Made by a program: the position numbers and the translations under genes | Part shown: positions 7,415 to 46,737 of the stretch, one piece after another | Layout: each line of letters opens with the position of its first letter | Numbering within the stretch: the stretch's first letter is position 1 | The notes under the pieces: generated by a model | The model's input: only the letters and a program-made list of their open reading frames with translations | Database searches by the model: none | What the model was told of the DNA's origin: nothing | NCBI RefSeq assembly: GCF_004358345.1 | Contig: NZ_CP037952.1 | Span: 3,348,001 to 3,412,000, forward strand | Direction of reading: 5' to 3' | DNA: 64,000 bases | Source of the DNA: Parashewanella spongiae | GTDB lineage: Bacteria; Pseudomonadota; Gammaproteobacteria; Enterobacterales; Shewanellaceae

Positions 7415-7666
7415 CCTAAATAAATAGGTTGAATGCACAATTTATTGAAGTTAAATACAAAATTAAACAACCCGAGTTCCCCCACCTGGTGAGTACTGAA
7501 CATTCATATACTTGCCAAAATCACCGCTAGTTGCGTTATAAATTTTGCAAGTAGAAACGAAGTAACGACAGTTTTGTATGTTGATAACCACTACTTGCTG
7601 CTATTCATGCCTTGCTATCAATAATTTTTTCTGCGTATATGAACGCTCCCAACCGATTTATTTAGG
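7415..7666. mobile_element. CCTA-type miniature element, copy 2 (252 bp, TSD ATGAA)
   Basis: Begins CCTAAATAAATAGG and ends CCGATTTATTTAGG, which are inverted repeats of each other. Exact 5-bp duplications ATGAA flank it at 7410-7414 and 7667-7671. Its interior carries the CGACAGTTTTGTATGTTG cassette (7566-7583) placed between GCAAGTAG and CTACTTGC arms. The right end abuts earP and supplies AGG of its Shine-Dalgarno sequence. It encodes no protein. Confidence 0.8.
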
Positions 7667-7675
7667 ATGAACAAC

Positions 7676-8842
7676 ATGAAAAACGATAAAAGTGATCATT
7701 GGGATATTTTTTGCACTGTCATAGATAACTACGGTGATATCGGTGTTACTTGGCGTTTAGCAAAGCAACTTCACAAGGAATTTAATAAAAATATTCACCT
7801 TTGGGTAGATGACCTTACGAGTTTTGGTCATATTTTGCCATTACTCGATAGAAGCCTTCCTCACCAAATATGCTCAGGCATTCACATACATAAGTGGAAT
7901 GATCAAACAACACAGCAATGGGTTGCAGGCGAAGTAATCATCGAAGGTTTTGCTTGTGAGTTGCCAATGATTATCATCAGCGAAATGGCTAAACAGACTC
8001 AACAATCTCCACTATGGTTAAATTTAGAATATTTAACAGCAGAAGAATGGGTCGATAACTGCCATGCCCTACCTTCTACTCATCATTTAGGTGTAAATAA
8101 GCACTTCTATTTCCCCGGTTTTAGTCCAAAAACTGGCGGTCTAATTTGTGAGAAAAATTTACTGACTGAACGAGCTTTATGGCAACAAGACAAATCTGCA
8201 CAACAACAATTTCTTGATGAATTGAACATAAAGATTGATATCAACAGCAACACACAATTGATCAGTATTTTTAGTTACGAAAGCCCCGCCCTCACAGCCC
8301 TTTGTGAGCGATGGGTATCAGGTAAGAAACAAACTCACGCACTTGTACCTATGGGAAAAAGCTTGCTCAGTATTTTGCCTGTCTTTTCGACCGACATTGA
8401 TACCATTACTGCTGGAATGTCGTTAGAAAAAGGAAACTTAACCCTCCACACTCTCCCTATGACAGACCAAAAAGGATATGACAAACTACTTTGGACTTGC
8501 GACATAAATATTGTTCGTGGTGAGGACTCTTTCTTACGTGCACAATGGGCAGCAAAACCATTTATTTGGCATATTTACCCACAAGATGAAAACGTTCACA
8601 TTAAAAAGCTTAATGCATTTACTGATCGTTATTGTGAAGATTTAGATGAAGAGTATGCAGTAACTATCCGTAAACTGAATCTTTCATTTAATCAAGATAA
8701 TGCTGATCTAACAGCTGAAAATTGGGATAAGCTCCAAAAACAGCAGCCCCATGTATTAGAGCATGCGAAGAAGTGGCCTAAAAAAGCGCTAAATGGCTCA
8801 GATTTAGCGACACGACTAGTGAATTTTGCCAAAAACCGCTAA
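7676..8842 (+). CDS. earP: EF-P arginine rhamnosyltransferase EarP
   Basis: Transfers rhamnose from dTDP-L-rhamnose to Arg32 of elongation factor P, which activates EF-P for rescue of polyproline-stalled ribosomes. The 388-residue protein opens WDIFCTVIDNYGDIGVTWRLAKQL (residues about 8-31), the EarP hallmark with the DNYGDIG acceptor-binding loop. Near the C-terminus are RGEDSFLRAQWAAKPFIWHIYPQ and QDENVHIKKLNAF, the nucleotide-sugar-binding part of this GT-B enzyme. It sits 45 bp upstream of efp. An in-frame ATG at 7667 lies within the target duplication of the adjacent element and has no ribosome site. The ATG at 7676 has AGGA (7664-7667) 8 bp upstream and is preferred. Confidence 0.95.
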   Translation: MKNDKSDHWDIFCTVIDNYGDIGVTWRLAKQLHKEFNKNIHLWVDDLTSFGHILPLLDRSLPHQICSGIHIHKWNDQTTQQWVAGEVIIEGFACELPMIIISEMAKQTQQSPLWLNLEYLTAEEWVDNCHALPSTHHLGVNKHFYFPGFSPKTGGLICEKNLLTERALWQQDKSAQQQFLDELNIKIDINSNTQLISIFSYESPALTALCERWVSGKKQTHALVPMGKSLLSILPVFSTDIDTITAGMSLEKGNLTLHTLPMTDQKGYDKLLWTCDINIVRGEDSFLRAQWAAKPFIWHIYPQDENVHIKKLNAFTDRYCEDLDEEYAVTIRKLNLSFNQDNADLTAENWDKLQKQQPHVLEHAKKWPKKALNGSDLATRLVNFAKNR

Positions 8843-8887
8843 GATCGAATCTTAATTAGAAATACCTAAAAAATAGGAACTGACAAA

Positions 8888-9448
8888 ATGAAAACAGCTC
8901 AGGAAATTCGTACCGGTAACGTAATCATGGTAGACAACCAGCCAATGGTTGTTCTAAAGACTGATACTCACCGTTCAGGGCGCGGTGCAGCAGTGGTTAA
9001 GATGAAGCTTAAGAACTTGCTACAAGGTACCGGTACTGAAACTGCGTTTAAAGCTGAAGATAAAGTAGAAGACATCATCTTAGATCGTCTAGATTGTACT
9101 TATTCTTATTTCGCAGATCCTATGTATGTGTTCATGGACGAAGAGTTCAACCAATATGACGTAGAAGCAGAAAACTTAGGTGATGCGTCACCATATATCG
9201 TCGACGGTATGGAAGAAGTTTGCCAAGTTACTTTCTACGAAGGTAAAGCTATTTCTGTTGAATTGCCAAACACTGTCGTTCGTAAAGTAACGTACACTGA
9301 GCCAGCGGCTCGTGGCGATACATCAGGTAAAGTAATGAAACCTGCTACTATTGTTGGTGGTGCGACTATCACTGTTGCTGAATTCGTTAAAAATGGCGAC
9401 TTTATTGAAATTGACCCACGTACTGGTGAATTTAAAAAACGTGTTTAA
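8888..9448 (+). CDS. efp: translation elongation factor P
   Basis: Enters the ribosomal E site and promotes peptide bond formation at consecutive prolines. The 186-residue protein has the three beta-barrel domains of EF-P. The acceptor loop of domain I reads HRSGRGAAV with Arg at position 32, the residue that EarP rhamnosylates, rather than the lysine modified by EpmA. This fits the earP gene directly upstream. The C-terminal signature [13 protein letters not shown] is present. AGGAA precedes the ATG at proper distance. Confidence 0.97.
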
Positions 9449-9464
9449 CTGCTGCTAGTTATAG

Positions 9465-9498
9465 TGCCAACATTGTTTTGACTTTGTTGGCAATTTTA
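9465..9498 (+). terminator. probable efp terminator
   Basis: TGCCAACA pairs with TGTTGGCA around a 12-base loop and is followed by ATTTTAG. The stem is clear and the T-tract short. Confidence 0.6.
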
Positions 9499-9650
9499 GT
9501 GTTAATTAAATTTTGTTTATCTTGCCTGAATTACTATCAATCTGCCATATAATCATCCCACACAAATTTTACATATCTACACTTAAAGATGCATAAAATC
9601 AAAGAACTTAAACTTCTCCACATTTTTAATGATGGTTACAATGGTGGATT

Positions 9651-9815
9651 CTAAGGAAAGTTGCGGGAGAAAGTATATCGATGAGTTCTCGTCACTCCAG
9701 CGCAGGCTGGAAACGAAGTAACGACAGTTTTGTATGTCGGTAGTCAAGTGTCTTTGCTTTTTCTATAAAAAGTCACTGGATACCAGCCTTCGCTGGTATG
9801 ACAAAGATTGGTACT
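9651..9815. repeat. RPT-C dispersed repeat, copy 1 (~165 bp)
   Basis: Contains CACTCCAGCGCAGGCTGG, then the hairpin cassette CGACAGTTTTGTATGTCG (9722-9739), then GGATACCAGCCTTCGCTGG and TATGACAAAGATTGGTA. The same order recurs inverted at 42938-43100 and 45826-46729. The CCAGCG..CTGG pairs make it an imperfect palindrome. The only other content of the 9449-9905 gap is the efp terminator. Confidence 0.75.
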
Positions 9816-9905
9816 TTCTAAGTCCCTAGATCTCTAAGTAAGTTCTCCAGATATGTATTTTCAAGTGGTATGGAGTGATTTAATTTCTTAGAATAAAGGT
9901 ATCGT

Positions 9906-10739
9906 ATGAGTGCAAGTATACAAGCTACTAAAACTGAAGATGTTGACTTTTCGCCAAGTGAGCAAGTTATCCCAGATTTAATGAGTCAATACAACTCGTC
10001 TGACTTTTTTCAGGAGGAACTGGGTGAAGTTGAACAAAGTGCTGTGAATGTAGTCATGGCTGATGTATCTATAAATCAGGAAGCGAAAATAGATGGCGTT
10101 GCTGACGACATTGCAAGATCCAAATTAGTATGTTCACAAGCGACTACTGAAGCTTTTTTAGTTCAGTTACCTGCAGATTCAGTGGTGAAACTTGTCCATA
10201 CAGCTGTACCCTCAACTCCTTGTTGTTATCAGCAACTTGTTTCTTCTGAAGAAGCACAACTATCGATACATCAAGATCGGAAAAGCTCCCCTCAAGTATC
10301 TAGAACCGTCCAGTTACGCATGCCGTTAGTGCATTCATTAGCGCGAAACACATCAGCAGACAATCCTTATTATGTCATTTACGCTAAAACTCGTACACAA
10401 CAATTTAATGACCAGAAAACCACAGGCTCAATAGAGGACATGGAAACTTTAGATAGAAATTATCAGGCTAATTTATCGAACACAAATTTAAACTTTAAAG
10501 ACGTAAAAGTTGACGCCGTAAGCCAAGAGCAGTCTGGAGCAAGTTATTTTTATAAACTATCGCCTAAAGAGCCATGGCGCTATTTCGGGGTTCACGCATA
10601 TCAAGCTAATGTGCGTGCAAGTACTGTAGTTGATTGGAGAGTCTGGGACTGTGAACTGAACAGTCAATTGGGTCAAGAAAAAATAAAGATAATTAGAAAT
10701 CTCGTTCCGGAAGAGGTGTTAAGAAAGTTAGGCCAATAG
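9906..10739 (+). CDS. hypothetical protein, 277 aa, no recognised family
   Basis: I do not recognise this protein. It has no signal peptide and no membrane segment. Residues 1-75 are acidic and probably disordered. The middle contains a short CCYQQL motif (residues about 101-106). The C-terminal 60 residues are better ordered and rich in aromatic residues (YFYKLSPKEPWRYFGVHAY, then VDWRVWDCELNSQLGQEK). GGTATCGT precedes the ATG and a purine-rich AATAAAGG lies 9 bp upstream, a fair ribosome site. It is a single gene between efp and the convergent fabF, and its stop codon lies inside the shared terminator hairpin. Confidence 0.6.
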   Translation: MSASIQATKTEDVDFSPSEQVIPDLMSQYNSSDFFQEELGEVEQSAVNVVMADVSINQEAKIDGVADDIARSKLVCSQATTEAFLVQLPADSVVKLVHTAVPSTPCCYQQLVSSEEAQLSIHQDRKSSPQVSRTVQLRMPLVHSLARNTSADNPYYVIYAKTRTQQFNDQKTTGSIEDMETLDRNYQANLSNTNLNFKDVKVDAVSQEQSGASYFYKLSPKEPWRYFGVHAYQANVRASTVVDWRVWDCELNSQLGQEKIKIIRNLVPEEVLRKLGQ

Positions 10740-10749
10740 GCCTAACTTT
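10724..10749. terminator. bidirectional terminator between the orphan gene and fabF
   Basis: AAAGTTAGGCC, loop AATA, GGCCTAACTTT form a perfect 11-bp stem. It overlaps the stop codon of the plus-strand gene and lies 15 bp past the fabF stop, serving both convergent transcripts. Confidence 0.85.
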
Positions 10750-10763
10750 CATGTTCAAACTAC

Positions 10764-12002
10764 TTAACTCTTTTTAAACAATAGTGAACCGTTAGTACCA
10801 CCAAAACCAAATGAGTTACACAAAGCGAATTCTAGCTTAGCATCACGCGCCGTGTGAGGCACAAAATCAAGATCGCAACCTTCATCTGGGCTTTCTAAAT
10901 TAATGGTTGGCGGAACAGCTTGATCGCGTAATGCGAGCAATGTAAAGATAGCTTCAATGGCACCAGCTGCCCCAAGTAGATGCCCTGTCATTGATTTTGT
11001 CGAACTCACCATTAAGTTATAAGCTTGCTCACCAAATACAGATTTCACAGCAGCAGCTTCAGCTTTATCACCTGCTGGAGTAGACGTACCATGTGCATTA
11101 ATATAACCAATGCTGTCTAATGATATTTGTGCATCATTAATGGCATTAGCCATTGCAAAAGCGGCGCCTTCACCATCAGCTGGAGGTGAAGTCATGTGGA
11201 AGGCATCTCCACTCATACCAAAACCAACTAATTCACCGTAGATCTTCGCACCACGAGCTTTAGCATGTTCATATTCTTCCATCACGATCATGCCTGCACC
11301 ATCACCAATGACAAATCCATCTCTGTCTTTATCCCATGGGCGGCTTGCTGCTGTTGGGTCATCATTACGTGTGGAAAGTGCTTTTGCTGCTGCGAAACCG
11401 CCAACGCCCATTGGTGAAGTGACGTCTTCTGCACCGCCGGCGATCATCACATCTGCATCACCGTATGCAATGGTACGTGCTGCAAAACCAATGTTATGAA
11501 CACCTGTCGTACAAGCTGTCGTTACTGCAAAGTTAGGACCTTTCATGCCATATTTAATTGAAACATGCCCAGAGATCATATTTATAATCGTACTAGGAAC
11601 GAAAAACGGTGATATTTTACGAGGGCCACCTTTCAGCATTGCACTATGATTATGTTCAATAAGTGGTAATCCACCCATACCCGCACCGATGGCCGTACCC
11701 ACTCTACTAAGGTTTTCTTGACTCATATTAAGCCCAGAATCTTCAACAGCTTGTATGCTTGCAGCCATGCCGTACTGGATAAATTTATCCATTTTACGAG
11801 CATCTTTCTTTGAAATATATTTCTCTACATCAAAGTTTTTGATAGAGCCACTAAAACGAGTACTTAACTCACTTGCATCAAAAGATGTAATTGGAGCAAT
11901 ACCGCTTTTTCCAGAAAGTAATGCTTCCCAAGTACTATCGACATCATTTCCCATTGGAGTAACGAGACCTAACCCAGTAACTACTACGCGACGTTTAGAC
12001 AC
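10764..12002 (-). CDS. fabF: beta-ketoacyl-ACP synthase II
   Basis: Condenses malonyl-ACP with acyl-ACP in fatty acid elongation, including the temperature-dependent C16:1 to C18:1 step in enterobacteria. The 412-residue protein has the thiolase fold with catalytic Cys164 in [12 protein letters not shown], first His in [11 protein letters not shown] and second His in [10 protein letters not shown]. It ends [14 protein letters not shown], as expected. It is the last gene of the yceD-rpmF-plsX-fabHDG-acpP-fabF cluster and is separated from acpP by a terminator-like hairpin, so it may be expressed at a lower level than acpP. Confidence 0.96.
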
Positions 12003-12110
12003 ATTATTTACCTTATAAACAATATTGAAAATACTGCCAGCAAATCCATGAATATGAAGAAATATAAAAAGAGATAATAATAACTATCAGATGCGGCAGG
12101 CTTAAAACAA

Positions 12111-12143
12111 AAACAGGCGGCATAAATGCCGCCTGTTTTCTAA
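12111..12143 (-). terminator. intercistronic terminator between acpP and fabF
   Basis: AAACAGGCGGCAT and ATGCCGCCTGTTT form a perfect 13-bp stem with a 2-base loop. On the minus strand it is followed by a T-rich stretch. It lies 10 bp past the acpP stop and would let acpP be transcribed in excess over fabF. Confidence 0.88.
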
Positions 12144-12152
12144 AATTCTTGA

Positions 12153-12386
12153 TTACTGATTGTTAGAAACGTAATCGATCGCTGACTGAACAGTAGTGAT
12201 CTTTTCAGCTTCTTCATCAGGGATCTCAGTATCGAACTCTTCTTCTAGAGCCATTACCAACTCAACAGTGTCCAGAGAATCTGCACCCAAATCGTCAACA
12301 AAAGATGCTGCTGGTTTAACGTCTTCTTCTTTAACGCCCAGCTGCTCGATAATGATTTTCTTTACACGTTCTTCGATGTTGCTCAT
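12153..12386 (-). CDS. acpP: acyl carrier protein
   Basis: Carries growing acyl chains on 4'-phosphopantetheine. The 77-residue acidic protein has the attachment motif [15 protein letters not shown] with Ser37. The four-helix pattern and length match E. coli AcpP (78). It lies 162 bp downstream of fabG, a gap large enough for its own promoter, and is followed at once by a strong hairpin, an arrangement that favours abundant short acpP transcripts. Confidence 0.97.
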
Positions 12387-12548
12387 TAGTTTTCTTTCCT
12401 ATTCAAATTACGCACTTGCGTAAGATTGAGAGTAGTTTATTCGATTCAGCTGACATTGCAACCCCAGATTTTGTGGTCTAACCACGAAATTCTGTAATTT
12501 GTCCAATGAATCATCACTCAGTTATCGCAGTTCCCTGCCAAGGCTCTG

Positions 12549-13295: not shown

Positions 13296-13305
13296 TTAAA
13301 ACTCC

Positions 13306-14232
13306 TTACTCAGTCAATGTTGCCAATGAAGCAGAGTTATTAACAGCCTTCGCTGACAATGATTTATTAATTCGTTTCGCGAGTCCAGTTAATACTTTTC
13401 CTGGACCAAATTCGTATAATTCAGAAATACCCATTTCAGCCATAGTGTTTACTGTTTCACTCCACCTCACAGGGCAATATAACTGACGAACTAATGCATC
13501 TTTAATGTCTTCAGCATTTGTTACAGCAGCCACATCAACATTGTTAATTAATGTGATCGAAGGCGTGTTAAAGTTAATTGAAGTAAGGGCTTCGGCTAGT
13601 TTATCCGCTGCAGGCTTCATTAATGCACAATGTGATGGAACACTTACAGGTAAAGCAACAGCCATTTTAGCCCCAGCTTCTTTACACGCAGTAGCTGCAC
13701 GCTCGACCGCATGCTTTTCACCAGCAATAACCACTTGACCTGGACTATTAAAATTAACTGGGCTAACAACGTCACCTTGTGAAGCTTCAACACAAGCTGA
13801 CTCAATTGCATCATCAGCTAAACCAATAATTGCATACATAGCACCTGTACCAGCTGGTACGGCTTGTTGCATTAATTGACCACGTAGCTCAACAAGTTTA
13901 ATCGCATCACAAAAGTCAATCACTCCAGCACAAACCAAGGCTGAATATTCACCTAGGCTATGACCAGCAACGACGTTTGGAAGTTCCTTGCCTGAGGCTT
14001 TATAACTACGCCACAATGCTACACTTGCCGCCAAAAGGGCTGGTTGTGTTTTATCCGTTTGATTTAAATCTTCTACTGGTCCATCTTGTACCAAACGCCA
14101 TAAATCGTAGCCAAGCACTTCACTTGCTTGATTGAATGTATCAATAACTACGGGGTGATTTTCTGCAAGATCTGCCAACATTCCTACAGCTTGAGAACCC
14201 TGACCAGGAAAAACGAATGCCATTTTAGACAT
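13306..14232 (-). CDS. fabD: malonyl-CoA:ACP transacylase
   Basis: Loads malonate from CoA onto ACP. The 308-residue protein begins AFVFPGQGSQAVGM. The nucleophile is Ser92 in GHSLGEYSA and the partner His is His201 in VPSHCALM, with GQVVIAG between. Length equals that of E. coli FabD (309). A 255-bp gap, holding a short repeat, separates it from fabH upstream. Confidence 0.96.
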   Translation of the reverse strand: MSKMAFVFPGQGSQAVGMLADLAENHPVVIDTFNQASEVLGYDLWRLVQDGPVEDLNQTDKTQPALLAASVALWRSYKASGKELPNVVAGHSLGEYSALVCAGVIDFCDAIKLVELRGQLMQQAVPAGTGAMYAIIGLADDAIESACVEASQGDVVSPVNFNSPGQVVIAGEKHAVERAATACKEAGAKMAVALPVSVPSHCALMKPAADKLAEALTSINFNTPSITLINNVDVAAVTNAEDIKDALVRQLYCPVRWSETVNTMAEMGISELYEFGPGKVLTGLAKRINKSLSAKAVNNSASLATLTE

Positions 14233-14305
14233 AATAAAAATCCCTATAAATATTTCTGAATAAAAATGAATGTGTGATTTTTATAGCTCATTGAATTTAC
14301 TTGTT

Positions 14306-14395
14306 TCGTCATTGCTGCGAAAGCAGGAAGCCAGCGGCTTTTTTTAGAGCAAAAAGGCATTGGATTCCCGCTTACAATATGCGGAAATGACCGTT
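14306..14395. repeat. diverged GCGAAAGC/CCCGCTT-type dispersed repeat
   Basis: Between fabD and fabH there is TCATTGCTGCGAAAGCAGG, later GGATTCCCGCTTAC and GCGGAAATGAC. This is the style of the common bacterial palindromic repeat that begins GTCATTCC and is read as GCGAAAGC. It resembles the outer part of RPT-C but lacks the cassette. The copy is degraded. Confidence 0.4.
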
Positions 14396-14487
14396 CTTTA
14401 AGGATTCAGCAGCGTAATTAGCCTACTAACATACCCTCAAACATTACATCTCTGCCAAAAAATAAATCACACATTAAGTTAGTAAAA

Positions 14488-15447: not shown

Positions 15448-15732
15448 AAAATGAAATCTTTTAGTAAAGGATCTTTCGACCACTCTTGCTTAGTATTACA
15501 GCTACACGGTATTCAATTAATCGATTCGATTTAAGTAAAAAAATCATAGAGTCATCGATTAAATATTATCTTAACTTATGTGGTTGCTGCCCATTTAAAT
15601 CAACTATGAAAATGCTATTTTCTTTATTGTTCGTCAATCATATTGAGTAATAATTTTACGTTTTCACGAATTATTCATAACATTTAATTGTTTGAATTAC
15701 AGAAATTCATGAGATTAGATTTAATTGCAGAA

Positions 15733-18327: not shown

Positions 18328-18561
18328 CCTAAAAACATCAGTTGAACGCTGAGTATATGAGTAACTGTTTGAGTCAATAAGATGACTTTATCATCATGGC
18401 TTTCACCCAATGAGTGAAGTGCTCTACGCTCACAAACTTGCTAAAATGACTGCTATCTGCGTTGTAACTTTTGCAAGTAGAATAACTACTTGCTGCAAGC
18501 TACGCCTTACTATCAGCCATTTTTTCTATGCTTGAGAACGCAGTCAACTGATGTTTCTAGG
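18328..18561. mobile_element. CCTA-type miniature element, copy 3 (234 bp, TSD ATGAA)
   Basis: Begins CCTAAAAACATCAGTTGA and ends TCAACTGATGTTTCTAGG, near-perfect terminal inverted repeats of about 18 bp. ATGAA flanks it at 18323-18327 and 18562-18566. Its centre has the palindrome GCAAGTAG-AATAA-CTACTTGC. It shares length and internal sequence with copies at 37867 and 39232. Confidence 0.85.
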
Positions 18562-18584: not shown

Positions 18585-18716
18585 GGAGAGAGGTATCGTT
18601 TATCTAGCGAAGACTAGAAACGAAGTAACGACAGTTTTGTTGTCGGTAGTCTAGCCTCTTTTTCTTGTTTAGTGAAAGTCACTGGATACCCGCATACGCA
18701 GTTATGACAAAACTCA
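18585..18716. repeat. RPT-C dispersed repeat, diverged copy
   Basis: Carries AGAAACGAAGTAACGACAG, a one-base-shorter cassette (CGACAGTTTTGTTGTCG, 18629-18645), then GTCACTGGATACCCGCATAC and a final TATGACAAAAC. Order and orientation match the copy at 9651 but the outer palindrome has decayed. Confidence 0.6.
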
Positions 18717-25365: not shown

Positions 25366-25420
25366 GTTTAAGTAGAGTAGGCTACTGGCTTCGCTATCGC
25401 TTATCCAGCAGCCCCTCTTC

Positions 25421-25454
25421 GATTCCGTGCATGAGGTTTTCCCTCACACGGCTC
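25421..25454 (-). ncRNA. group II intron domain V
   Basis: The minus strand reads GAGCCGTGTGAGG, GAAAA, CCTCATGCACGGAATC. This 34-nt hairpin has the AGC catalytic triad, the GNRA-like tip and the two-base bulge of domain V, the most conserved part of these ribozymes. Confidence 0.85.
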
Positions 25455-25491
25455 TGTTGTTACACTTCTCTCAGCCCCTTCACTTTGCTTA

Positions 25492-26772
25492 TCATCTTGT
25501 CGTGGGTAAATACTCAAGACCAGCTTGGCGTAATTTTTCGTAAGCACCTCGTGATAGATACTTGCTTCGACGTTGACTTAAGCGACGATGCCATCGATAG
25601 AATCGGTTTACTACAAATCCATTTATTCTGAAAAATACTCCTCTGGGATATCCTATCCCACCAAAATAGTGTTTCCATCCCCTCAGAACTTGATTAACTT
25701 TATTTATCAGTACGCCAAGTGTATTTGAGGTTCGATGCTTCACTATGTCTCTGAGTTTATTTTTCAGCTTTGTTTGGCTCTTCTTAGACGCCTGTATCTT
25801 AATGTAACTGGTGCCTTTGATGAAGCCTGTGATCCGTTGAAAGTTAAAACCGAGGAAATCAAACTCATTCATCAGCTTTCCCATATCCACACAGTGGGTT
25901 TTACTTTGATTTAGCTTCAGACCTTCATCACTTAATTGCTGTGCTATCCAGTCCAGTTGCTCTTGTGTGTAGGTTTGCTTATGAAGTACAACAAAATCAT
26001 CTGCATAGGTAACGATTTTACACGGTGTTTTTTCGTGTATTTTCAAACAGAAATCGTTGAGATAGATGTTAGCCAGTAGTGGAGAGATAACTCCGCCTTG
26101 CGGAGTGCCACATCGGCTTGCTTCTATTCGCCATTTTCTGTTGACCGTCTCTACGCTGATGGGCGCTTTGATAAAGCTTTTCAGCAAACTCAGAAAGCTG
26201 CTGTCGCTTATTCGCCTTTCTACTTTTGCCATCAACTTAGCGTGCGGGATGGTATCGAAATAGGCGCTCAAGTCAGCATCAAGTACGTGCTGATAGCCTT
26301 GTTTTAGGCTCATTTCAATGACTTTTACCGCTTGCTGGGCGCTTCGACATGGACGATAACCATAACTGTGTTCATGTAAATGAGGTTCGTAGACGGGTTG
26401 CATCACTATTGTCATCGCCATTTGCACAATTCTGTCACTGATTATCGGGATCCCAAGTTTCCGCGTTTTGCCGTTGTCTTTGAGTATTTCTACTCGTTTG
26501 ACTGGGCTAGGTCGATAGTTTTTCTGTTGTAATTGAGTTTGAATTTCTTTTAACAGCGCAACGACTTTCTTTTGCTGCTCTAGACAACTGAATGTGATGC
26601 CATCAATTCCTGCTCCGCCTTTATTGGCTTTGCATCGTCGATAGGCTTCTTCGAGTATATCTAGGCGACTGAGTTTATCGTACAAGCTGTAAAATCGTAG
26701 CTCCGAGTTAAGCTTTGAGCGTAAGTAAAGTTTTCGCTGTAATATTCTGATATTTACTGGAGTGTTAGCCAT
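25492..26772 (-). CDS. ltrA: group II intron reverse transcriptase/maturase
   Basis: Assists intron splicing and copies the intron RNA into DNA at a new site. The 426-residue protein has the RT palm with LDADLSAYFDTIPH (residues 164-177), GTPQGGVISPLLANIYL and the active-site YADD at 256-259. The maturase X domain follows (LRGWKHYFGGIGYP, RINGFVVNRFYRWHRRLS). There is no C-terminal HNH endonuclease domain, so target cleavage would need another route. All RT motifs look intact and there is no frameshift. It lies inside its intron. Confidence 0.93.
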   Translation of the reverse strand: MANTPVNIRILQRKLYLRSKLNSELRFYSLYDKLSRLDILEEAYRRCKANKGGAGIDGITFSCLEQQKKVVALLKEIQTQLQQKNYRPSPVKRVEILKDNGKTRKLGIPIISDRIVQMAMTIVMQPVYEPHLHEHSYGYRPCRSAQQAVKVIEMSLKQGYQHVLDADLSAYFDTIPHAKLMAKVERRISDSSFLSLLKSFIKAPISVETVNRKWRIEASRCGTPQGGVISPLLANIYLNDFCLKIHEKTPCKIVTYADDFVVLHKQTYTQEQLDWIAQQLSDEGLKLNQSKTHCVDMGKLMNEFDFLGFNFQRITGFIKGTSYIKIQASKKSQTKLKNKLRDIVKHRTSNTLGVLINKVNQVLRGWKHYFGGIGYPRGVFFRINGFVVNRFYRWHRRLSQRRSKYLSRGAYEKLRQAGLEYLPTTR

Positions 26773-27382
26773 ATGGCAATTTCACCTCAAAAGTTACGTT
26801 AAAAAACGGGTGTAACACTGAGCCCCTTCCCTGATGTGAAGTTATGTTGTCTTCACGGTTAACGGTACTATGGGCTCATCCGACTGCCTGAGCGCCCTAT
26901 CTGAAATTTCGGTTTACCTTATATTCGGATAGTGGAAGTCACTACCTTCCAACACTCAGGCTCTCCCACGTTCACTTTATTTCCTTCAATACATGCCACT
27001 TCATATTACGCCGGAAGATCAAACAGATGCATTTACCAGTTGCTTCTCTGTTTGTGTCAGGGTTCGTCAACTAGGAAAGACTCCCCATCTTCATTTTTTG
27101 ATTTACGACGCTTAACTGAATTCGCTTGATGCTGCGGCCTACATTGCATCTCAACCTTTATTCAAGGCCTTTGTCACAGGGCTTCATGTCATAGCGGTTA
27201 CCCATTATGCATGCCCGTCAGATTTCGGGATGAACTGGTAATTATCCCGTCAGGTACGTTTCAACCTGATGGACTTATTATAAATAATAACGTTGCTGTC
27301 TCTGGTTTATGGCCATGTAATCGCTTGGCTGCGTATACGTTGAGACAAATCCCGCAACAGAATAAAGCGCTTCGTGGCGCTC

Positions 27383-28493: not shown

Positions 28494-28535
28494 GGTAGTT
28501 CTCATTATGTTATAAATACTCGGGTATATGTACTA

Positions 28536-28849
28536 GGGGCTGTTTATCTTTCAGGATTAAATTCTGTACTATTTGAGCGTTTATCTGTTCAAGGCGTAAG
28601 CAGTGAAGCTTAGTCATCTAAGTAAACGGGTTACAACACAGAACAGTGAACGCTCAAAAGCATCGAAAAAAGAGAGAGCGTAAATTGGTCGCTCTTTCTA
28701 AATAAAAGGTACTGCGTTATCGCTTGCTTATTTGGAAACGAAGTAACGACAGTTTTGTATGTCGATAATAACCAAACCGCACAAACTCTGTTTTGTATAA
28801 AACGATCAATTTATCGCTGCAAAAATAATCACGAAAGATAAATAGCCCC
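28536..28849. mobile_element. TA-type miniature element, copy A (314 bp)
   Basis: Terminal inverted repeats GGGGCTGTTTATCTTTC and GAAAGATAAATAGCCCC, 17 bp and perfect, with TA on each side (28534-28535 and 28850-28851). It carries the hairpin cassette at 28747-28764 and no ORF. Related copies lie at 37550 and 45894. The ends and the TA duplication fit mobilisation by an IS5- or IS630-like transposase, which is not in this window. Confidence 0.85.
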
Positions 28850-28851
28850 TA

Positions 28852-29125
28852 ATACCAATTACAGTAATTAATTTCTCATTCAGCAAGTAAAAAAGGTTTG
28901 CAGTACAAGGCGCATGTTCGAAGTACTATATTCCCTACGGCCGCCATATAAAGCTCGCGTTCAATGCACTTCGTGCTTTTGTCGGGATAAGTCAAAAACG
29001 TGCAACGTAGCAATGTAATAACGACAGTTTTGTATGTCGGTAATAACTATGTTTTCACCAATTTCGTTTGTACTTTGTTCGCATACATAGCTCTCAGTTG
29101 AGCATTTAATTACTGTAATTGGTAT
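28852..29125. mobile_element. ATACCAATTACAG-type miniature element (274 bp)
   Basis: Perfect 20-bp terminal inverted repeats: ATACCAATTACAGTAATTAA at 28852-28871 and its complement at 29106-29125. The interior has the hairpin cassette CGACAGTTTTGTATGTCG at 29022-29039. It abuts the preceding TA-type element. A short fragment of the same end occurs at 45712. Together the two elements fill almost all of the 28506-29232 gap. Confidence 0.8.
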
Positions 29126-37549: not shown

Positions 37550-37843
37550 GAGTCTGTTGATCTTTCAGGATTAAATTTTGTGCTATTTGAGCATTTATCT
37601 GTTCAAGGCGTGAGCAGTGATGCTTAGCCATCTATGTGAGCTGGTCACAACACAGAGCTGTGAATGATCAAAAGCATCGAAGACAGCGTAAATTGGTCAT
37701 TTCTGCTACGTTATCGCTTGCTTATTTGGAAACGAAGTAACGACAGTTTTGTATGTCGATAATAACCAAACCTCACAAACTCTGCCTTGCATAAAATAAC
37801 CAATTTATCGCTGCAAAAACAATCACGAAAGATCAACAGACCC
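37550..37843. mobile_element. TA-type miniature element, copy B (294 bp)
   Basis: Ends GAGTCTGTTGATCTTTC and GAAAGATCAACAGACCC with TA at 37548-37549 and 37844-37845. The interior is collinear with copy A, with about 20 bp missing near the AGAGAGCG segment. It carries the cassette at 37741-37758. Confidence 0.85.
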
Positions 37844-37866
37844 TAAGCCTTTATTACTTTGATTAT

Positions 37867-38099
37867 CCTAAAAACATCAGTTGAACGCTGAGCATTCGAG
37901 TAACTGTTTGAGCAATATAATGATTTTATCATCATGGCTTTCACCCAATGAATGAAGTGCTCTACGCTCACAAGCTTGCTAAAATGACTGCTATCTGCGT
38001 TGTAACTTTTGCATGTAGAATAACTATTTGCTGCTAGCTACGCCTTATTATCAGCCATTTTTTCTACGCTTGGGAACGCAGTCAACTGATGTCTCTAGG
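37867..38099. mobile_element. CCTA-type miniature element, copy 5 (233 bp, TSD ATTAT)
   Basis: Starts CCTAAAAACATCAGTTGA, ends TCAACTGATGTCTCTAGG, and is flanked by ATTAT at 37862-37866 and 38100-38104. It lies 24 bp from the TA-type copy B and directly upstream of lacI. It has the same orientation as the copy after lacI. Confidence 0.85.
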
Positions 38100-39220: not shown

Positions 39221-39231
39221 TTCGACTTGAA
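39202..39231 (+). terminator. hairpin at the lacI stop codon
   Basis: TTCAAGTCGAAC, AGTTTA, GTTCGACTTGAA form a perfect 12-bp stem overlapping the TAG stop. The last five bases TTGAA are the target duplication of the next element, which begins at 39232, exactly at the foot of the hairpin. No T-tract follows. Confidence 0.65.
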
Positions 39232-39464
39232 CCTAAAATCATCAGTTGAACGCTGAGTATATGAGTAACTGTTTGAGCAATACGATGATTTTATCATCAT
39301 GGCTTTCACACAATGAGTGAAGTGCTCTACGCTCACAAGCTTGCTAAAATGGCTGCTATCTGCGTTGTAACTTTTGCAAGTAGAATAACTACTTGCTGCA
39401 AGCTACGCCTTACTATCAGCCATTTTTTCTACGCTTGAGAACGCAGTCAACTGATGTTTCTAGG
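39232..39464. mobile_element. CCTA-type miniature element, copy 6 (233 bp, TSD TTGAA)
   Basis: Starts CCTAAAATCATCAGTTGA and ends TCAACTGATGTTTCTAGG. TTGAA duplications flank it at 39227-39231 and 39465-39469. It is nearly identical in sequence, length and orientation to copies at 18328 and 37867. Confidence 0.87.
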
Positions 39465-39486
39465 TTGAACCACTCTATCAAAGAAT

Positions 39487-41133: not shown

Positions 41134-41138
41134 AATTA

Positions 41139-42650
41139 TTAAACTCTTTGTTCATCACTAGCCGTTTCATGAGACACATTTAATGAAAATAAACCTGCAA
41201 TGACTAGACTTATTGCGCCTACCAACAAAGCATAAATAGGTTGATTATCAAAAACGAGTTTTAAAATGACACCTAAAATACTGGCTGCGAGCAATTGCGG
41301 AATAACAATAAAGAAATTAAAGATCCCCATGTAAACACCCATTTTATTCGATGGTAAAGCGCCCGCTAACATGGCATATGGGAGTGATAAAATTGATGCC
41401 CAAGCAAATCCAACACCTACCATTGCAATTAGTAAATAATCTGGATTATCAATTACCAAGAATAACGCCAAACCGCCCGCACCAAGAAATAAATTCACTA
41501 AATGGGCTTTACGTAAGCCAATGGATTTCACCATAAATGGAATAGCAAGAGCAGCAAGTGCAGAGAAACCGTTATAGGTGGCAAATAAAACCCCTACCCA
41601 ATTAGCACCGTCATTAAACTCAACGGTTGAGGCATCAGAAGAGCCAAAGTGTACTGAGGTAACAGCTGCTGTGGTATAAATCCACATTGCAAATAAAGCA
41701 AACCAAGAGAAAAATTGAACCACTGCCAATTGTTTCATCACTTTTGGCATTGTCATTAAATCTTGAAAAACAGAATCGAACCCTGTCATTGGTTTGTTCT
41801 TTTTATGTCGACCACCTACGATTAACATTAAAAATCCAAATACCCAAATACTGCCAGAGAGAACATAAAGCTGTTTGTCTAGATCTAAGCTTAAAATCAA
41901 AAATGTCGAAAACAAACCAAGGGCCGACCAAATAACACCAAGTTTTACGAATCTCGCCGGATCAAATACGGCTTTTAAAGGTTGTTTATTGTCACTTTGG
42001 TTTTCATCAAAAGAAGCTAATTCTTGAGGAGAATATTCTTTCGTCGAAAAAACCGTCCAACAAATAGTGGCAAGAAGCACTACTGCACCAGCATAAAACG
42101 CATATTTTACGGTATCAGGAAGTTGCCCTTCAACGGCTTGATTATCAACACCAAATTCAGCTAACACCCAAGGTAGCATTGAAGCAACAACAGCACCTAT
42201 ACCGATAAAGAAACTCTGCATAGAGTAACCTCTAGCCTGTTGTTTTTTAGGCATGTTATCGGCTACAAAAGCGCGGAATGGCTCCATTGACACATTAATA
42301 GATGCATCTAATATCCAAAGTAAACCCGCTGCCATCCATAAATAACTCGCATTAGGCATTAAAACAAGGGCCAAACTGGTGACAATTGCACCGTAAAGAA
42401 AGTAAGGACGACGGCGCCCTAAATGCGTCCATGTTTTATCGCTTAAATGACCGATGATTGGCTGTACAATTAACCCAGTTACAGGGCCAGCAATCCAAAG
42501 AATAGGAATTGTATCCATTTCAGCGCCAAGAGTTTGAAAAATTCGACTCATGTTTGCGTTTTGTAAAGCAAAGCCAAATTGCAGGCCTAAAAATCCGAAG
42601 CACATGTTCCAAATTTGCCAAAAGCTTAGATGTGGCTTGTCATTCGCCAT
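41139..42650 (-). CDS. MFS sugar carrier, SLC45/MalT-like
   Basis: Inner-membrane proton-coupled sugar carrier, probably for maltose or maltodextrins. The 503-residue protein has 12 predicted membrane segments. The loop-2 motif is SDKTWTHLGRRRPYFLYGA. The start SFWQIWNMCFGFLGLQFGFALQNANMSRIF and DASINVSMEPFRAFVADNMP are typical of the glycoside/SLC45 group seen in alteromonad maltose loci. It heads an operon with the GH13 enzyme. A LacI-type palindrome lies 109 bp upstream of its start (42759-42774). Confidence 0.88.
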   Translation of the reverse strand: MANDKPHLSFWQIWNMCFGFLGLQFGFALQNANMSRIFQTLGAEMDTIPILWIAGPVTGLIVQPIIGHLSDKTWTHLGRRRPYFLYGAIVTSLALVLMPNASYLWMAAGLLWILDASINVSMEPFRAFVADNMPKKQQARGYSMQSFFIGIGAVVASMLPWVLAEFGVDNQAVEGQLPDTVKYAFYAGAVVLLATICWTVFSTKEYSPQELASFDENQSDNKQPLKAVFDPARFVKLGVIWSALGLFSTFLILSLDLDKQLYVLSGSIWVFGFLMLIVGGRHKKNKPMTGFDSVFQDLMTMPKVMKQLAVVQFFSWFALFAMWIYTTAAVTSVHFGSSDASTVEFNDGANWVGVLFATYNGFSALAALAIPFMVKSIGLRKAHLVNLFLGAGGLALFLVIDNPDYLLIAMVGVGFAWASILSLPYAMLAGALPSNKMGVYMGIFNFFIVIPQLLAASILGVILKLVFDNQPIYALLVGAISLVIAGLFSLNVSHETASDEQRV

Positions 42651-42758
42651 TCCAGTTTCCTTTTATAATTATTATGTCCGTTAATTTTAACGTCACTTAA
42701 TATTATTCACACAAGTAGCTGAACATAGTAACGAGCTTACTAGATCTGCAACAGGCCG

Positions 42759-42774
42759 TTACATACGTATTCAT
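42759..42774. promoter_or_regulatory. candidate LacI/MalR operator upstream of the MFS carrier
   Basis: TTACATACGTATTCAT, a palindrome centred on CG of TACGTA, the usual shape of LacI-family operators. Similar sites lie at 58672 and 59037 in the same locus. Confidence 0.6.
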
Positions 42775-42937
42775 AGAATCAAAAGTTATTAAATAGGCGG
42801 TGAAGTGAAATAGCACAGAGAATAGAAACAAACTCTACGATGAAATTTTAATCTAAGTTCAAGGTATGTATTAACTTGTAATAGATATGATTAAATCAAC
42901 ACTCTAGAAATATTAAGGGATCTAACGATTTAGAAAT

Positions 42938-43100
42938 TACCAATCTTTGTCATGCCAGCGAAGACTGGTATCCAGTGACTTTTATAGAAAAAAGCAAAGG
43001 CGCTAGACTATCGACATACAAAACTGTCGCTACTTCGTTTCCAGCCTGCGCTGGGGTGACGAGAACTCATCGGTATACTTTCTTCCGCAACTTTGCTAAG
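42938..43100. repeat. RPT-C dispersed repeat, intact inverted copy (163 bp)
   Basis: Reads TACCAATCTTTGTCATGCC, a CCAGCGAAGACTGG palindrome, the cassette in reverse (CGACATACAAAACTGTCG, 43013-43030), then CAGCCTGCGCTGG. It is uninterrupted and serves as the empty-site reference for the copy at 45826-46729. With the operator it accounts for most of the 42651-43233 gap. Confidence 0.8.
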
Positions 43101-43233
43101 CTAAACGGAGAATTTGCGACATGATTTATATTCCATAAAATACACCATGGTTATTAAGTTAAACATTCCTACTGACTATTCTCACTTAGCAAAAAGCATT
43201 AAAATAAATACTAGATTGTGAATCGAGGTAAGT

Positions 43234-43623
43234 ATGTTTAAAGTTATTTCAAAACTGCTGATTCTAGTGTTAGTACTAGTGACCTTTTTGGCGCAAGTAA
43301 TGGCTTACAATACTTCCTTTTATTGCGAAACGTCTTCACAACATGCCCACGATGATTCTGTGTCGCTGAAAGAGTCCCCTAGCTCATTCTCTAAAGTTTC
43401 AGAAGCAACTATAGATTGCTGTAGTACTGAATGTTGTGACTTAAATTGCATATGCATTGCCAATGCTTGTTCCTATTTTGTTTATTTACCCTTCGAAGTT
43501 GGTTCCAGCAAAGTCGTTATTGTCAGCGAAGCTATCTCTACACAAAAGTTTGAACCGATTAGCCTAGCATTTACTTTACCCTATCGCCCTCCTATTTATT
43601 TTACGCAACCACTGTATACATAA
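43234..43623 (+). CDS. exported Cys-rich protein, CopL-like, upstream of a TonB receptor
   Basis: A 129-residue protein with a signal peptide (MFKVISKLLILVLVLVTFLA, QVMA). A His patch, SQHAHDD, follows, and a dense Cys block CCSTECCDLNCICIANACS lies at about residues 63-81. The tail ends PYRPPIYFTQPLYT. The block resembles the Cys signature of CopL-type metal-responsive leader proteins of copper operons, but the match is by pattern only. GAGGTAAGT precedes the ATG. It lies 77 bp upstream of a His-rich TonB receptor. The gap contains a TCAGCAT/ATGCTGA hairpin (43656-43673). Metal binding in the periplasm, perhaps regulatory, is a reasonable inference. Confidence 0.6.
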   Translation: MFKVISKLLILVLVLVTFLAQVMAYNTSFYCETSSQHAHDDSVSLKESPSSFSKVSEATIDCCSTECCDLNCICIANACSYFVYLPFEVGSSKVVIVSEAISTQKFEPISLAFTLPYRPPIYFTQPLYT

Positions 43624-43700
43624 CATAATCAACAGCTTAACTATTTAAGATTAAGTCAGCATTACCATGCTGAATGTTCACCGAGTTTCCAGAGGTAAAA

Positions 43701-45707
43701 ATGTTTAATAAAGTTTTAAACACAGCTATAGCAATCATGTTGCTTCCAGTATTAGCTAACGCAAATGAAGATCACAACAATAGTCATAATGAGCATGATG
43801 ATCACATAGAAAAACATCATGACCATAGCGAAGAAAAAATTGAAAGAATTCAAGTAAAAGCCTCTCGTTTAGGCCGCATCGTAACCGAGTCAGCTACGAG
43901 AACCGAAATAATAAACGGCGAAGAAGTGCAAGAAAAAGCACTCATGCGACCGGGGAATATCTCAATGTTAGTGGCTGAAACTGGCGGAGTTAGAGTGCAA
44001 AATACTTCGCCTTCATTGGGTAGCGCCAATATTAGGTTACAAGGGCTTTTTGGCCGTTACACACAGCTTTTAAGTGATGGTTTGCCTTTGTACGGTGGAC
44101 AAACAGCTTCCATTGGGTTGTTACAAATTCCGCCAACCGACTTAGCCAGTGTCGAAATAATTAAAGGCTCCGCTTCATCATTGTATGGGGGCTCTGCGCT
44201 CGGCGGAGTAATAAACTTAATTTCCCGAACACCTTCTGATGAATTCGAAGGAGAAGTGTTAGTTAACGCAACATCTAGAAATGGACAAGATATCACTTCG
44301 TACTTTGCGACACCGTTCACAAATGATTTAAGCGCTTCATTAACCGCTGGTGTGCATCATCAAAAAACACAAGACTTAGATGACGATGGCTGGATTGATA
44401 TCGCCGGATATGAAAGAGGTAGTGTTCGTCCTCGCCTTTATTGGCAAGGTGACAATGGCGCTAACCTTTACGTTACTTTTGGCGCAACCAAGGAACAAAG
44501 AGAGGCTGGTACGTTAGGTAATGCTACAGTACCTGACGGCAACAGATTTGCTATCACACAAGACACATTGAGAACAGATGTCGGCTTTATATATGATCAA
44601 CCTATTGGAGAAGTCACGAGCATTAACGTGCGTGGCTCAGCGATGAACCAAGACCACGAACATTTATATGGTGCAGTGTTTGAGGATGATAAACACGAAA
44701 GTTATCTTATCGAATCAAGTTTAACTGGGTATTCTGACGAATCTGCATGGTTAGTTGGCGTCGCATTGCAATCTGAAAAGTTTAATTCTAAGGCGTTTCC
44801 TGAGTTCAATTACTCTTATCAAGTGCCAGGACTGTTTTCACAGTTGGATTATGACATCAGTGACGAAACATCCTTGTCTTTCAGTGCACGTACAGATTGG
44901 CACAGTGAATATGGTACTCAAGTAAGCCCTCGTGTTTCGTTGTTATACAGCCCTGACAATTGGACCATTAGAGGCGCATATGGAAAAGGATACTTTGCTC
45001 CAACTCCATTTATCGAAGATCTTGATGAAGTTGGGTTATCTCGCCTTGCCCCGTTTGAGAATATTGATGAAGAGAGAGCATCTACAGCCTCAATAGATAT
45101 GAGCTATTTAATAGGCCCTCTTGAGACTAGCGTGACATTGTTTTCATCAAACATTGATAACGTGACAGAATTACAAACCATTAATGGAACTAATGAGTTT
45201 CCCGGGAAAAACGTTCAAATAGTCAATGCTATTGGTGAAAGTAAAATTAGTGGTGCTGAATTATTACTGCGCTATCGCTGGAAAGATATTAAATTTACTG
45301 GTAGCTACTTATACACAGACGCCACAAAAGAAAGTGACTCAGGTGTTGGCCGAGCACCTTTAGTTTTAACACCTAAACATTCTGCTGGCTTGGTAGTTAT
45401 GTGGGAAGAACATGGCAGTCATTTACTTGGGTTTGAAGCTTATTATACAGGAACGCAGCACCTCGAGAATAACCCGTACCGTGAGCGAAGCGATGCTTAT
45501 TGGCACTTAGGCTTATTGGGCCAGATTAGTGTCGGCAAAGTAAGCTTTTTTATCAATGCTGAAAACTTATTAAATGTACGCCAAACAAGAGAAGAATCAT
45601 TGTTATTGCCTTCTCAAGATCCTAGTGGAAGATGGACAACAGACATTTGGTCTAGAAATGATGGCTTTACCGTAAATGCGGGTGTGCGTTTTAAATTTGG
45701 CAGTTAG
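43701..45707 (+). CDS. TonB-dependent receptor, His-rich, probable Zn/Cu type
   Basis: Outer-membrane beta-barrel that imports a ligand with TonB energy. From the ATG at 43701 (GAGGT 6 bp upstream) the protein has 668 residues; an upstream start at 43674 is rejected. After the signal peptide (MFNKVLNTAIAIMLLPVLAN) comes a His/Asp/Glu-rich stretch, HNNSHNEHDDHIEKHHDHSE, typical of ZnuD-like metal receptors. The TonB box region is EKIERIQVKAS. The plug follows (NIRLQGLFGRYTQLLSDGLP, KGSASSLYGGSALGGVINLI), then the barrel with the final aromatic-containing strand GVRFKFGS. The Cys-rich gene upstream supports a metal role. A terminator follows at 45754. Confidence 0.85.
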   Translation: MFNKVLNTAIAIMLLPVLANANEDHNNSHNEHDDHIEKHHDHSEEKIERIQVKASRLGRIVTESATRTEIINGEEVQEKALMRPGNISMLVAETGGVRVQNTSPSLGSANIRLQGLFGRYTQLLSDGLPLYGGQTASIGLLQIPPTDLASVEIIKGSASSLYGGSALGGVINLISRTPSDEFEGEVLVNATSRNGQDITSYFATPFTNDLSASLTAGVHHQKTQDLDDDGWIDIAGYERGSVRPRLYWQGDNGANLYVTFGATKEQREAGTLGNATVPDGNRFAITQDTLRTDVGFIYDQPIGEVTSINVRGSAMNQDHEHLYGAVFEDDKHESYLIESSLTGYSDESAWLVGVALQSEKFNSKAFPEFNYSYQVPGLFSQLDYDISDETSLSFSARTDWHSEYGTQVSPRVSLLYSPDNWTIRGAYGKGYFAPTPFIEDLDEVGLSRLAPFENIDEERASTASIDMSYLIGPLETSVTLFSSNIDNVTELQTINGTNEFPGKNVQIVNAIGESKISGAELLLRYRWKDIKFTGSYLYTDATKESDSGVGRAPLVLTPKHSAGLVVMWEEHGSHLLGFEAYYTGTQHLENNPYRERSDAYWHLGLLGQISVGKVSFFINAENLLNVRQTREESLLLPSQDPSGRWTTDIWSRNDGFTVNAGVRFKFGS

Positions 45708-45711
45708 CGTT

Positions 45712-45726
45712 TTAATACCAATTACA
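45712..45726. repeat. fragment of the ATACCAATTACAG element end
   Basis: AATACCAATTACAG matches one terminus of the element at 28852. The remainder is absent. Confidence 0.5.
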
Positions 45727-45753
45727 GCGAGAATCGCTAATTTAATGTAATAT

Positions 45754-45786
45754 AAAACAGGCTGATTTATGCTCAGCCTGTTTTTT
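45754..45786 (+). terminator. Rho-independent terminator of the TonB receptor gene
   Basis: AAAACAGGCTGA, a short loop, TCAGCCTGTTTTTT, 46 bp after the stop codon. Confidence 0.9.
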
Positions 45787-45893
45787 GAAGTGATTCATTT
45801 AAGCTCTAAAGCAGAACCATTAAAGTACCAATCTTTGTCATACCAGCGAAGGCTGGTATCCAGTGACTTTTATAGAAAAAAGTAAAGACACTA

Positions 45894-46632
45894 GGGTCTG
45901 TTGATCTTTCGTGATTGTTTTTGCAGCGATAAATTGGTTATTTTATGCAAGGCAGAGTTTGTGAGGTTTGGTTATTATCGACATACAAAACTGTCGTTAC
46001 TTCGTTTCCAAATAAGAAAACGATAACGCAGCACCTTTTATTTAGAAAGAGCGACCAATTTACGCTCTCTCTTTTTTCGATGCTTTTGAGCATTCACTGT
46101 TCTGTGTTGTGACCAGCTCACTTCGATGGCTAAGCATCACTGTTCACGCCTTGAACCTAAACGTTCATGATAGGCATAGATGTCATATGCGTTTACTTTG
46201 GCTACTATTTTTCTATCACCCTACACCAGGAAAATTGTATTCGCTGAGATTTGAAGATTATTTCCAACCTAAGCTAAAGGCGAAGTGATTTTTAGCTTTT
46301 ATGCTTTCACTAACAGGCTTGGGAATAGGTGTTAGCGGCTATTTTCACGGTAAAAACATCAGTTGAACGCTGAGCATATGAGTAACTGTTTGAGTCAATA
46401 AGGTGACTTTATCATCATCCTAAATAAATCGGTTGGGAGCGTTCATATACGCAGAAAAAATTATTGATAGCAAGGCATGAATAGCAGCAAGTAGTGGTTC
46501 TACTTGCTGCAAGCTACGCCTTACTATCAGCCATTTTTTCTATGCTTGAGAGCGCAGTCAACTGATATTTCTAGGTTGAACAGATAAATGCTCAAATAGC
46601 ACAAAATTTAATCCTGAAAGATCAACAGACCC
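45894..46632. mobile_element. TA-type miniature element, copy C, interrupted (739 bp)
   Basis: Ends GGGTCTGTTGATCTTTC and GAAAGATCAACAGACCC, with TA at 45892-45893 and 46633-46634. It is inverted relative to copies A and B and carries the cassette at 45979-45996. Removing the nested element (420 bp) and one 5-bp duplication leaves 314 bp, exactly the length of copy A. Confidence 0.87.
46156..46575. mobile_element. CCTA-type miniature element, copy 7, composite (420 bp, TSD TTGAA)
   Basis: Starts CCTAAACGTTCATG and ends CTGATATTTCTAGG, flanked by TTGAA at 46151-46155 and 46576-46580. Inside it are, in order, the arm shared with the element at 1652, the start of an AAACATCAGTTGAACGC-type element, the CCTAAATAAATCGG end of the 7415 type, and a CTACTTGC...TTTCTAGG end. 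It looks like a mosaic of at least three members. Confidence 0.75.
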
Positions 46633-46737
46633 TAGACTACCGACATACAAAACTGTCGTTACTTCGTTTCTAGCCAGCGCTGGAGTGACGAGAACTCATC
46701 GGTATACTTTCTTCCTCAACTTTCCTAAGGTCGTGCA

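Follow-up and report, generated by a model that had tools for sequence, protein, structure and literature searches.

How does one short hairpin come to sit inside repeat families that are otherwise unrelated? The question is raised by a 64,000-nucleotide stretch of the Parashewanella spongiae genome (the window; positions 3,348,001-3,412,000 of the genome's single 5,468,749-base contig), in which a hairpin cassette with arms CGACA/TGTCG had been noted from sequence at nine places. This recurrence is confirmed. The 18-mer core of the cassette has eight matches in the window at up to three mismatches, seven of them exact and one (7566) with a single mismatch; 100 shuffles of the window yielded a mean of 0.01 matches and a maximum of one. 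The genome as a whole holds 352 exact copies, or 578 when up to two mismatches are allowed, and the reversed control has none. Chance is therefore ruled out as the source. Some details of the original prediction need amending: eight of the nine cores fit the 18-mer within one mismatch, the remaining one (18629) carrying a 1-nt deletion (CGACAGTTTTGTTGTCG); the core placed at 43013 is present, with its correct start at 43012 on the minus strand; and the 12-mer said usually to precede the core is found within one mismatch at eight of nine sites, CAATGTAATAA standing in its place at 29022. A ninth match to the 12-mer, at 13367, has no adjoining core.

The recurring unit is longer than the core. 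It is a module of 31 nt composed of an 11-nt 5′ part (AAACGAAGTAA or CAATGTAATAA), the CGACA/TGTCG hairpin and a final GT. In host families A, B and C the module reads AAACGAAGTAA-CGACAGTTTTGTATGTCG-GT (v1; GAT in most of B), and in family D CAATGTAATAA-CGACAGTTTTGTATGTCG-GT (v2) or point variants of it, as in all 60 full-length filled copies. Within the window, v1 occupies host C at 7555-7585 (+; the core with one mismatch, TGTTG), host A at 9711-9741 (+; between CTGG and AGTC), 18618-18647 (+; 30 nt, with the deletion in its core) and 43010-43040 (−), and host B at 28736-28766 (+; between TTTGG and AATAACCAAA), 37730-37760 (+) and 45977-46007 (−). At 46639-46669 (−) it lies in the left half of host A with a B-type end (CTAGGGTCTGTTGATC) on the right. 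The v2 module (CAATGTAATAA..GGT) is found at 29011-29041 (+) in host D, a ATACCAATTACAG-type element. The window also contains four empty C-type sites, at 18473-18493 (+; GCAAGTAG-AATAA-CTACTTGC), 38011-38031 (+; variant arms), 39376-39396 (+) and 46487-46507 (−; loop AACCA, as reverse complement). These sites, the 31-nt length of the unit and its exact empty counterparts all go beyond what had been noted before.

Host families were found through anchors beside the cassette rather than through the cassette itself, in 949 kb (17%) of the genome; as these stretches were picked with module sites in view or centred on modules or Y1 transposase genes, the counts are not genome frequencies. Of the 226 anchored copies (A 27, B 52, C 73, D 74), 209 belong to two length classes exactly 31 nt apart, 142 filled and 67 empty, a count in which a B subfamily with loop AATA (three filled, ten empty) is paired with its own kind. 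The remaining 17 comprise five D empties shorter by one base, two C empties longer by one, two A copies longer by 30 and eight others, among them a chance anchor match in D at 4584353. Among the five A empties, the one at 1050990 (loop AATC) may represent another pair of repetitive extragenic palindromes (REPs). The empty forms are CTGG-AGTC-TAG in A (loops AGTC/AGCC), TTTGG-AATAA-CCAAA in B (loops AATAA/AATA), GCAAGTAG, AACCA or AATAA, and CTACTTGC in C (loops AATAA/AACCA/AACAA), and ACGTAG, one of AATAA, AACAA, AACGA or AGCAA, and CTATG in D. Because the empty form keeps the loop of its own family, the module can be placed at the 5′ edge of the host hairpin loop. A filled site less 31 nt equals an empty one, so that no duplicated bases are required.

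The module is shared by the genus. Allowing up to two mismatches, a 22-mer of it was detected in all five Parashewanella genomes (514, 55, 22, 15 and 11 copies) and in none of 147 other genomes of Shewanellaceae, the family to which Parashewanella belongs. The P. spongiae genome, with 514 copies vs 11-55 in the other four (G001-G004), holds many times more. An exact scan of the genomes of 84,980 species, a set which differs from the family set (three vs five carriers) and may not include the present genome, retrieved only Parashewanella curva, P. hymeniacidonis and Shewanella sp. OPT22 (29 stretches). There were no matches to an exact 30-mer in viral contigs and none to the host B element in plasmids. 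A search of the open literature, with subscription papers lying mostly outside it, yielded no description of the module repeat; three papers mention Parashewanella, once each, and by their titles none deals with repeats.

In the relatives, the module also resides in hosts unseen in the window (34 contexts are listed), and one of these, the 195-nt host H, is the most informative about gain. It has 173 whole or partial matches in five genomes and was judged on the 32 full-length copies among the loci examined, of which 25 are empty, four are filled in forward orientation and three are filled in reverse about 10 nt away. Empty copies measure 195 nt and filled ones 226 nt (229 and 240 in hosts that are themselves longer). 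Forward insertions lie directly after AATAG (AATAA in locus L217) and before AATAR, and consist of three v1 modules and one v2 (L217), v1 in L213 and v2 in L217 being at the same point; reverse insertions read CCGCAGA[module]CATAG. Once 31 nt are removed, the central host letters of L137, L152 and L153 align without gaps; L122 has an extra 14-nt difference elsewhere. Without its module, filled L213 differs from empty L207 at only 2 of 195 positions, and L214 at four. In the H tree, L213 and L214, both filled, cluster with the empty copies L207 and L208 within a larger empty group (support of 87-94 in the Shimodaira-Hasegawa-like approximate likelihood ratio test, SH-aLRT), and the three states need four changes. 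Since a filled and an empty copy are nearly identical and the module occurs in two orientations at two points, the H insertions appear to be independent; separate insertions are the simplest account of the orientations, positions and module versions, of each of which there are two. We thus regard the module as very probably a discrete unit with independent insertions.

Evidence for loss comes mainly from host D. In a tree built from the flanks of D, 63 of 74 rows were scored as filled (including the chance match at 4584353) and 11 as empty; the empties need ten changes, about the same as the mean of 10.4 for shuffled labels, and at least four are forced by the starred, well supported branches. 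The scatter of empties suggests precise loss, and the simplest reading of the D sequences would be one gain followed by several exact losses. Precise loss in this host is, in our estimation, likely. In B and C the labels are clustered on the trees, so far fewer events are needed (four and seven changes, respectively; the empties of C include one row whose centre measures 20 nt). Slippage between direct repeats was rejected as the sole route of loss: it is possible in B and C, which have AA at both ends, while the ends of D have no matching bases.

What, then, is the target? The arms of the host hairpin were examined in an alignment of 72 distinct 48-nt rows of the 74 prepared (L152 and L117, not being 5-nt-loop hosts, were excluded); rows from relatives had to be capable of at least three of the four inner arm pairs, a filter that biases the set towards a good outer stem. 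Pairing of the outer arms is seen in 96% of cells, and double-sided changes in three of the five pairs. None of 500 shuffles attained the observed covariation score or number of paired cells, and slid controls were far lower. As this pairing is owned by the host and present without the module, it describes the target and proves no function. For the core stem the paired share of cells is 98%. A relative of the core, here called E (CGCGAGCTTTATATGGCG; 28942-28959, −), shares its host element with the module at 29011. It has the stem CGCCA..TGGCG vs CGACA/TGTCG, with ten exact copies among the close matches and more in anchored copies, and its paired changes fit a kept stem. E is inverted with respect to the D module, 80 nt from it in the window and 155 nt in several other loci, and no clear empty form of E was found among anchored copies. 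Genome-wide, the E relative is observed as CGCCAGYTTTGTATGGCG inside the ATACCAATTACAG-type element, usually with GTGCGTTGAA before it.

On balance, we favour the view that the module is a discrete, non-autonomous 31-nt mobile unit of Parashewanella that inserts at the 5′ edge of a hairpin loop without duplication and can be lost exactly. The mobile mini-module suggested in the original prediction is to this extent borne out by the 31-nt filled/empty pairs in A-D and H and by the independent H insertions, the overall reading being partly supported. Seen directly in the sequences are these pairs, the several unrelated hosts, the recent gain in H with opposite orientations at its two points, and the exchanged halves; exact loss in D is an inference. 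Insertion would take place at the 5′ edge of a short hairpin loop, typically G^AAYNN-C, atop the arms of hosts resembling REPs or miniature inverted-repeat transposable elements (MITEs); entry would duplicate no target bases, exact loss would be possible, and copy number would rise mainly through multiplication of the hosts. Cutting and rejoining might be carried out on folded single strands by an enzyme acting in trans in the manner of IS200/IS605 elements, though not necessarily one of them. Shape-directed insertion of this kind fits the constant loop-edge position, the lack of target duplication and the exact loss; for the trans-acting enzyme itself we are less sure, and put its chances a little short of even. 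That the module represents a new class of mobile DNA, namely a shape-aimed 31-nt hairpin unit with exact excision and an enzyme in trans, parasitic on MITEs and REPs, is a possibility we entertain with more doubt.

IS200/IS605 elements use folded single strands as their substrate; their insertion duplicates no target bases and shows a strand bias with replication, and their excision is exact. In the P. spongiae genome there are 18 matches to Y1 transposases, several of them broken; four whole proteins are scored as IS200/IS605 and fall well short of the cut-off for REP-associated tyrosine transposases (RAYTs). Cores (up to three mismatches, within about 1.5 kb) accompany six of the 18 Y1 loci (L013, L014, L019, L023, L024 and L025), and three of these six loci (L014, L019, L024) overlap. 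Their distances from the gene differ, so there is no constant link between Y1 genes and the module. Y1 matches are present in all five genomes of the genus, the only one in G003 having an internal stop. IS200/IS605 enzymes acting in trans remain candidates.

Several observations weigh against a mobile unit of this kind. The Y1 and RAYT searches of the genus genomes yielded no mover enzyme, and the insertions have no target duplication. Strand bias relative to GC skew is absent among 185 copies (60 plus and 68 minus in positive-skew bins, 30 and 27 in negative ones); movement of the hosts would hide such a bias. An apparent replichore polarity, with no plus copies between 1.6 and 3.0 Mb, was rejected, as plus copies do occur there. 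The trees are mostly composed of weakly supported branches, and the starred ones force only two changes in B, two in C, four in D and one in H. Of the 47 C rows scored as empty, 41 form one separate clade, so that the filled/empty contrast in C may be of old date. The loop is ATAA in five D empties, which are short of one further base. Of the two differences between L213 and L207, one is found 6 nt to the left of the insertion, and a further one in L214 stands at the same distance on the right; short flanks may thus have been copied along with the module. Repeated gain or loss could also be mimicked by exchange between copies. As to structure, the number of pairs changed on both sides and the pair types, two of the five covariation measures, are not above shuffles; in the 72 rows no pair of the core stem is changed on both sides, paired core changes being confined to the E relative, for which there is no clear empty form; and folding energies are modest, the module by itself being not unusually stable (z about −1).

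The main rival explanation requires no dedicated mover. Replication stalled at hairpin tips could switch template, with the strand copying a filled tip and returning through a few common bases on each side (TAG before, AAYAAC after); loss would be the reverse event. This account gains from the failure to find an enzyme, and from the exchange of host halves. When the halves of 185 module copies were classified (up to three edits; six copies fell in no class on either side), most of the classed copies had both halves from one family, and eleven were chimeras joined at the module: two A-B, two A-D, one B-D, one C-A and three D-A (two by eye), plus two combining a reversed A right half with a C right half. 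In the nine direct chimeras the left half keeps the 5′ part of the module. Some joins fall at 5-6 common bases (968987, 814404, 4218011), and an additional one links B interior and A side at a common AAGTAA. Spread by recombination between elements, as proposed earlier, thus finds partial support in chimeric halves joined at the module. Template switching is also favoured by the loop and closing letters being alike in B, C, D and H, so that several target bases are common, by the occurrence of v2 both in the P. curva host H copy L217 and in a D-like host (L167) of the same species, and by the difference 6 nt left of the module that sets L213 and L214 apart from empty L207. Against it stand the reverse H insertions, whose flanks share few bases with the other listed module flanks, and the 31-nt precision in 209 of 226 copies, which we judge better than loose switching would give. 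Because of these two observations we prefer shape-directed insertion and consider template switching possible but rather doubtful.

Alternatively, the module might be a functional RNA or protein-binding signal under selection, its presence and absence reflecting selection and deletion instead of mobility. The expected conservation is observed: as the original prediction had it, the core is more conserved than its surroundings, with mean identity to the consensus of 97.3-99.8% for the module vs 70-96% for the 40-nt flanks in filled copies of families A-D (those whose centres are full-length and whose flanks are long, the flanks having played no part in finding the copies). The paired changes by which the E relative keeps its stem point in the same direction. 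However, a functional signal leaves unexplained the exact 31-nt difference between near-identical H copies and the two orientations, and many host copies do without the module. In addition, no Rfam family matches the module at the gathering score, the only window matches being two to group II introns; the 28700-29100 region gave a single chance-level match. A known RNA family is ruled out on these grounds, and we consider selection on a functional signal improbable; the protein-binding site and the RNA signal offered in the original prediction are in themselves conceivable.

Movement as a REP by a RAYT is still less credible. The module is a short hairpin with many copies, and REPs inside small palindromes are described in T. 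roseum and others (PMC3733652). Yet none of the five genus genomes exceeded the curated NF047646 cut-off, vs one of 14 control genomes; cores lie near only six of 18 Y1 loci and at differing distances, the four whole proteins being IS200/IS605; and neither a GTAG nor a CGTC tag is constant, since the bases to the left are GTAG in C and D, TTGG in B, CTGG in A and ATAG in H, and the right side of the module reads GGTAA, GATAA or GGTAG. Membership of the REP/RAYT system is rejected on these results. We also observed longer ORFs of 332-359 aa in G001-G004 (L224 and similar ones) that weakly match the C-terminal portion of the RAYT model; no core was found within L222-L226. Finally, descent of all hosts from one diverged or truncated ancestral element, with the core surviving, might be suspected from their being palindromic at the module with similar loop letters, but is next to impossible given their different terminal arms, stems and lengths and the exact empties in each of A-D, and is refuted for H by the two module orientations.

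The difference in host ends noted earlier is evident within the window, where inverted arms differ among the host B element (28530-28855, +; bounded by 30-nt inverted arms), the host D/E element (28860-29117, +; inner portion of inverted arms) and the C-type hosts, which include the host C element at 7415-7666 (+; 17-nt inverted arms) and an empty one at 18328-18561 (+; 18-nt inverted arms). Host A (9711, 18618, 43010 and 46639) has CGTCACTCCAGCG..GCTGG with an inverted partner, resembling by eye a dimer of CGTC-type REPs, which are said to have no dedicated transposase (PMC3733652). At 46580-46669 (−), the A left half gives way, at CTAG, to a B-type terminal repeat (TAGGGTCTGTTGATC); there are five such cases, which we read as nested insertions, apparently at one preferred point, rather than as exchanges. 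Elsewhere in the window, a group II intron at 25372-27271 (−) is delimited by the two Rfam matches (25372-25456 and 27127-27271) with a reverse transcriptase/maturase ORF (25492-26772) between them, and direct repeats about 321-333 nt apart occupy 51421-52233 within a 1443-aa ORF (51258-55589).

Among known systems, IS200/IS605 genes are present in 5/5 genus genomes, with the module at no constant place beside the loci of its own genome. Bacterial MITEs resemble the hosts of the module in inverted ends and many copies; the module is far shorter, its ends (AAACG..CGGT) are not inverted repeats and it needs no duplicated bases. CGTC-type REPs carry a CGTC tag, a stem of 8-9 bp, a loop of 4-5 and the tail CCA (PMC3733652), whereas the module has a stem of 5 bp, a loop of 8 nt and no such tag. 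Closer is the case of T. roseum, where GTAG-23 elements lie inside small palindromes with hundreds of target copies in the genome (PMC3733652). Compared with these, the module lacks the GTAG/CGTC tag and a RAYT above the cut-off (0/5 genomes) and has several unrelated hosts and an exact 31-nt difference.

In yeast mitochondria, GC42 and other GC clusters are portrayed as very short palindromes subject to presence/absence, merging and shuffling (PMC4478555). They share with the module very short palindromic units present or absent at homologous sites, merging or shuffling, and a mover that is not settled; they differ in their flanking AG or ACT direct repeats, the module having no target duplication, and in their GC-rich organellar setting. 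Double-hairpin elements can be placed beside them by title only. The cyanobacterial small dispersed repeat (SDR) SDR5 (Elhai et al. 2008, as relayed in PMC4390886 and PMC2884548) belongs to a group of repeats some 20 bp long and possibly mobile (PMC4390886, PMC2884548), and is reported to be inserted precisely in HIP1, between nucleotides 3 and 4 (PMC4390886). Both SDR5 and the Parashewanella module are repeat modules set precisely in another repeat, and precise presence or absence inside other repeats is found for the module in A-D and H. By these accounts, the target of SDR5 is a fixed 8-mer and that of the module a hairpin loop edge in several unrelated hosts; SDR5 comes from a different phylum, and the likeness is drawn from descriptions.

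If real, the module would be among the smallest mobile DNA units with clear filled and empty sites, apparently with a structure as its target, and its hundreds of natural replicates in one genome would make the movement of tiny hairpins (SDRs, GC clusters, single REPs) testable in a bacterium. It would also mean that unrelated repeat families can acquire one common part, which misleads repeat classification. SDR5, GC42 and REPs in palindromes are precedents of a related kind; what is new here is the module of this genus.

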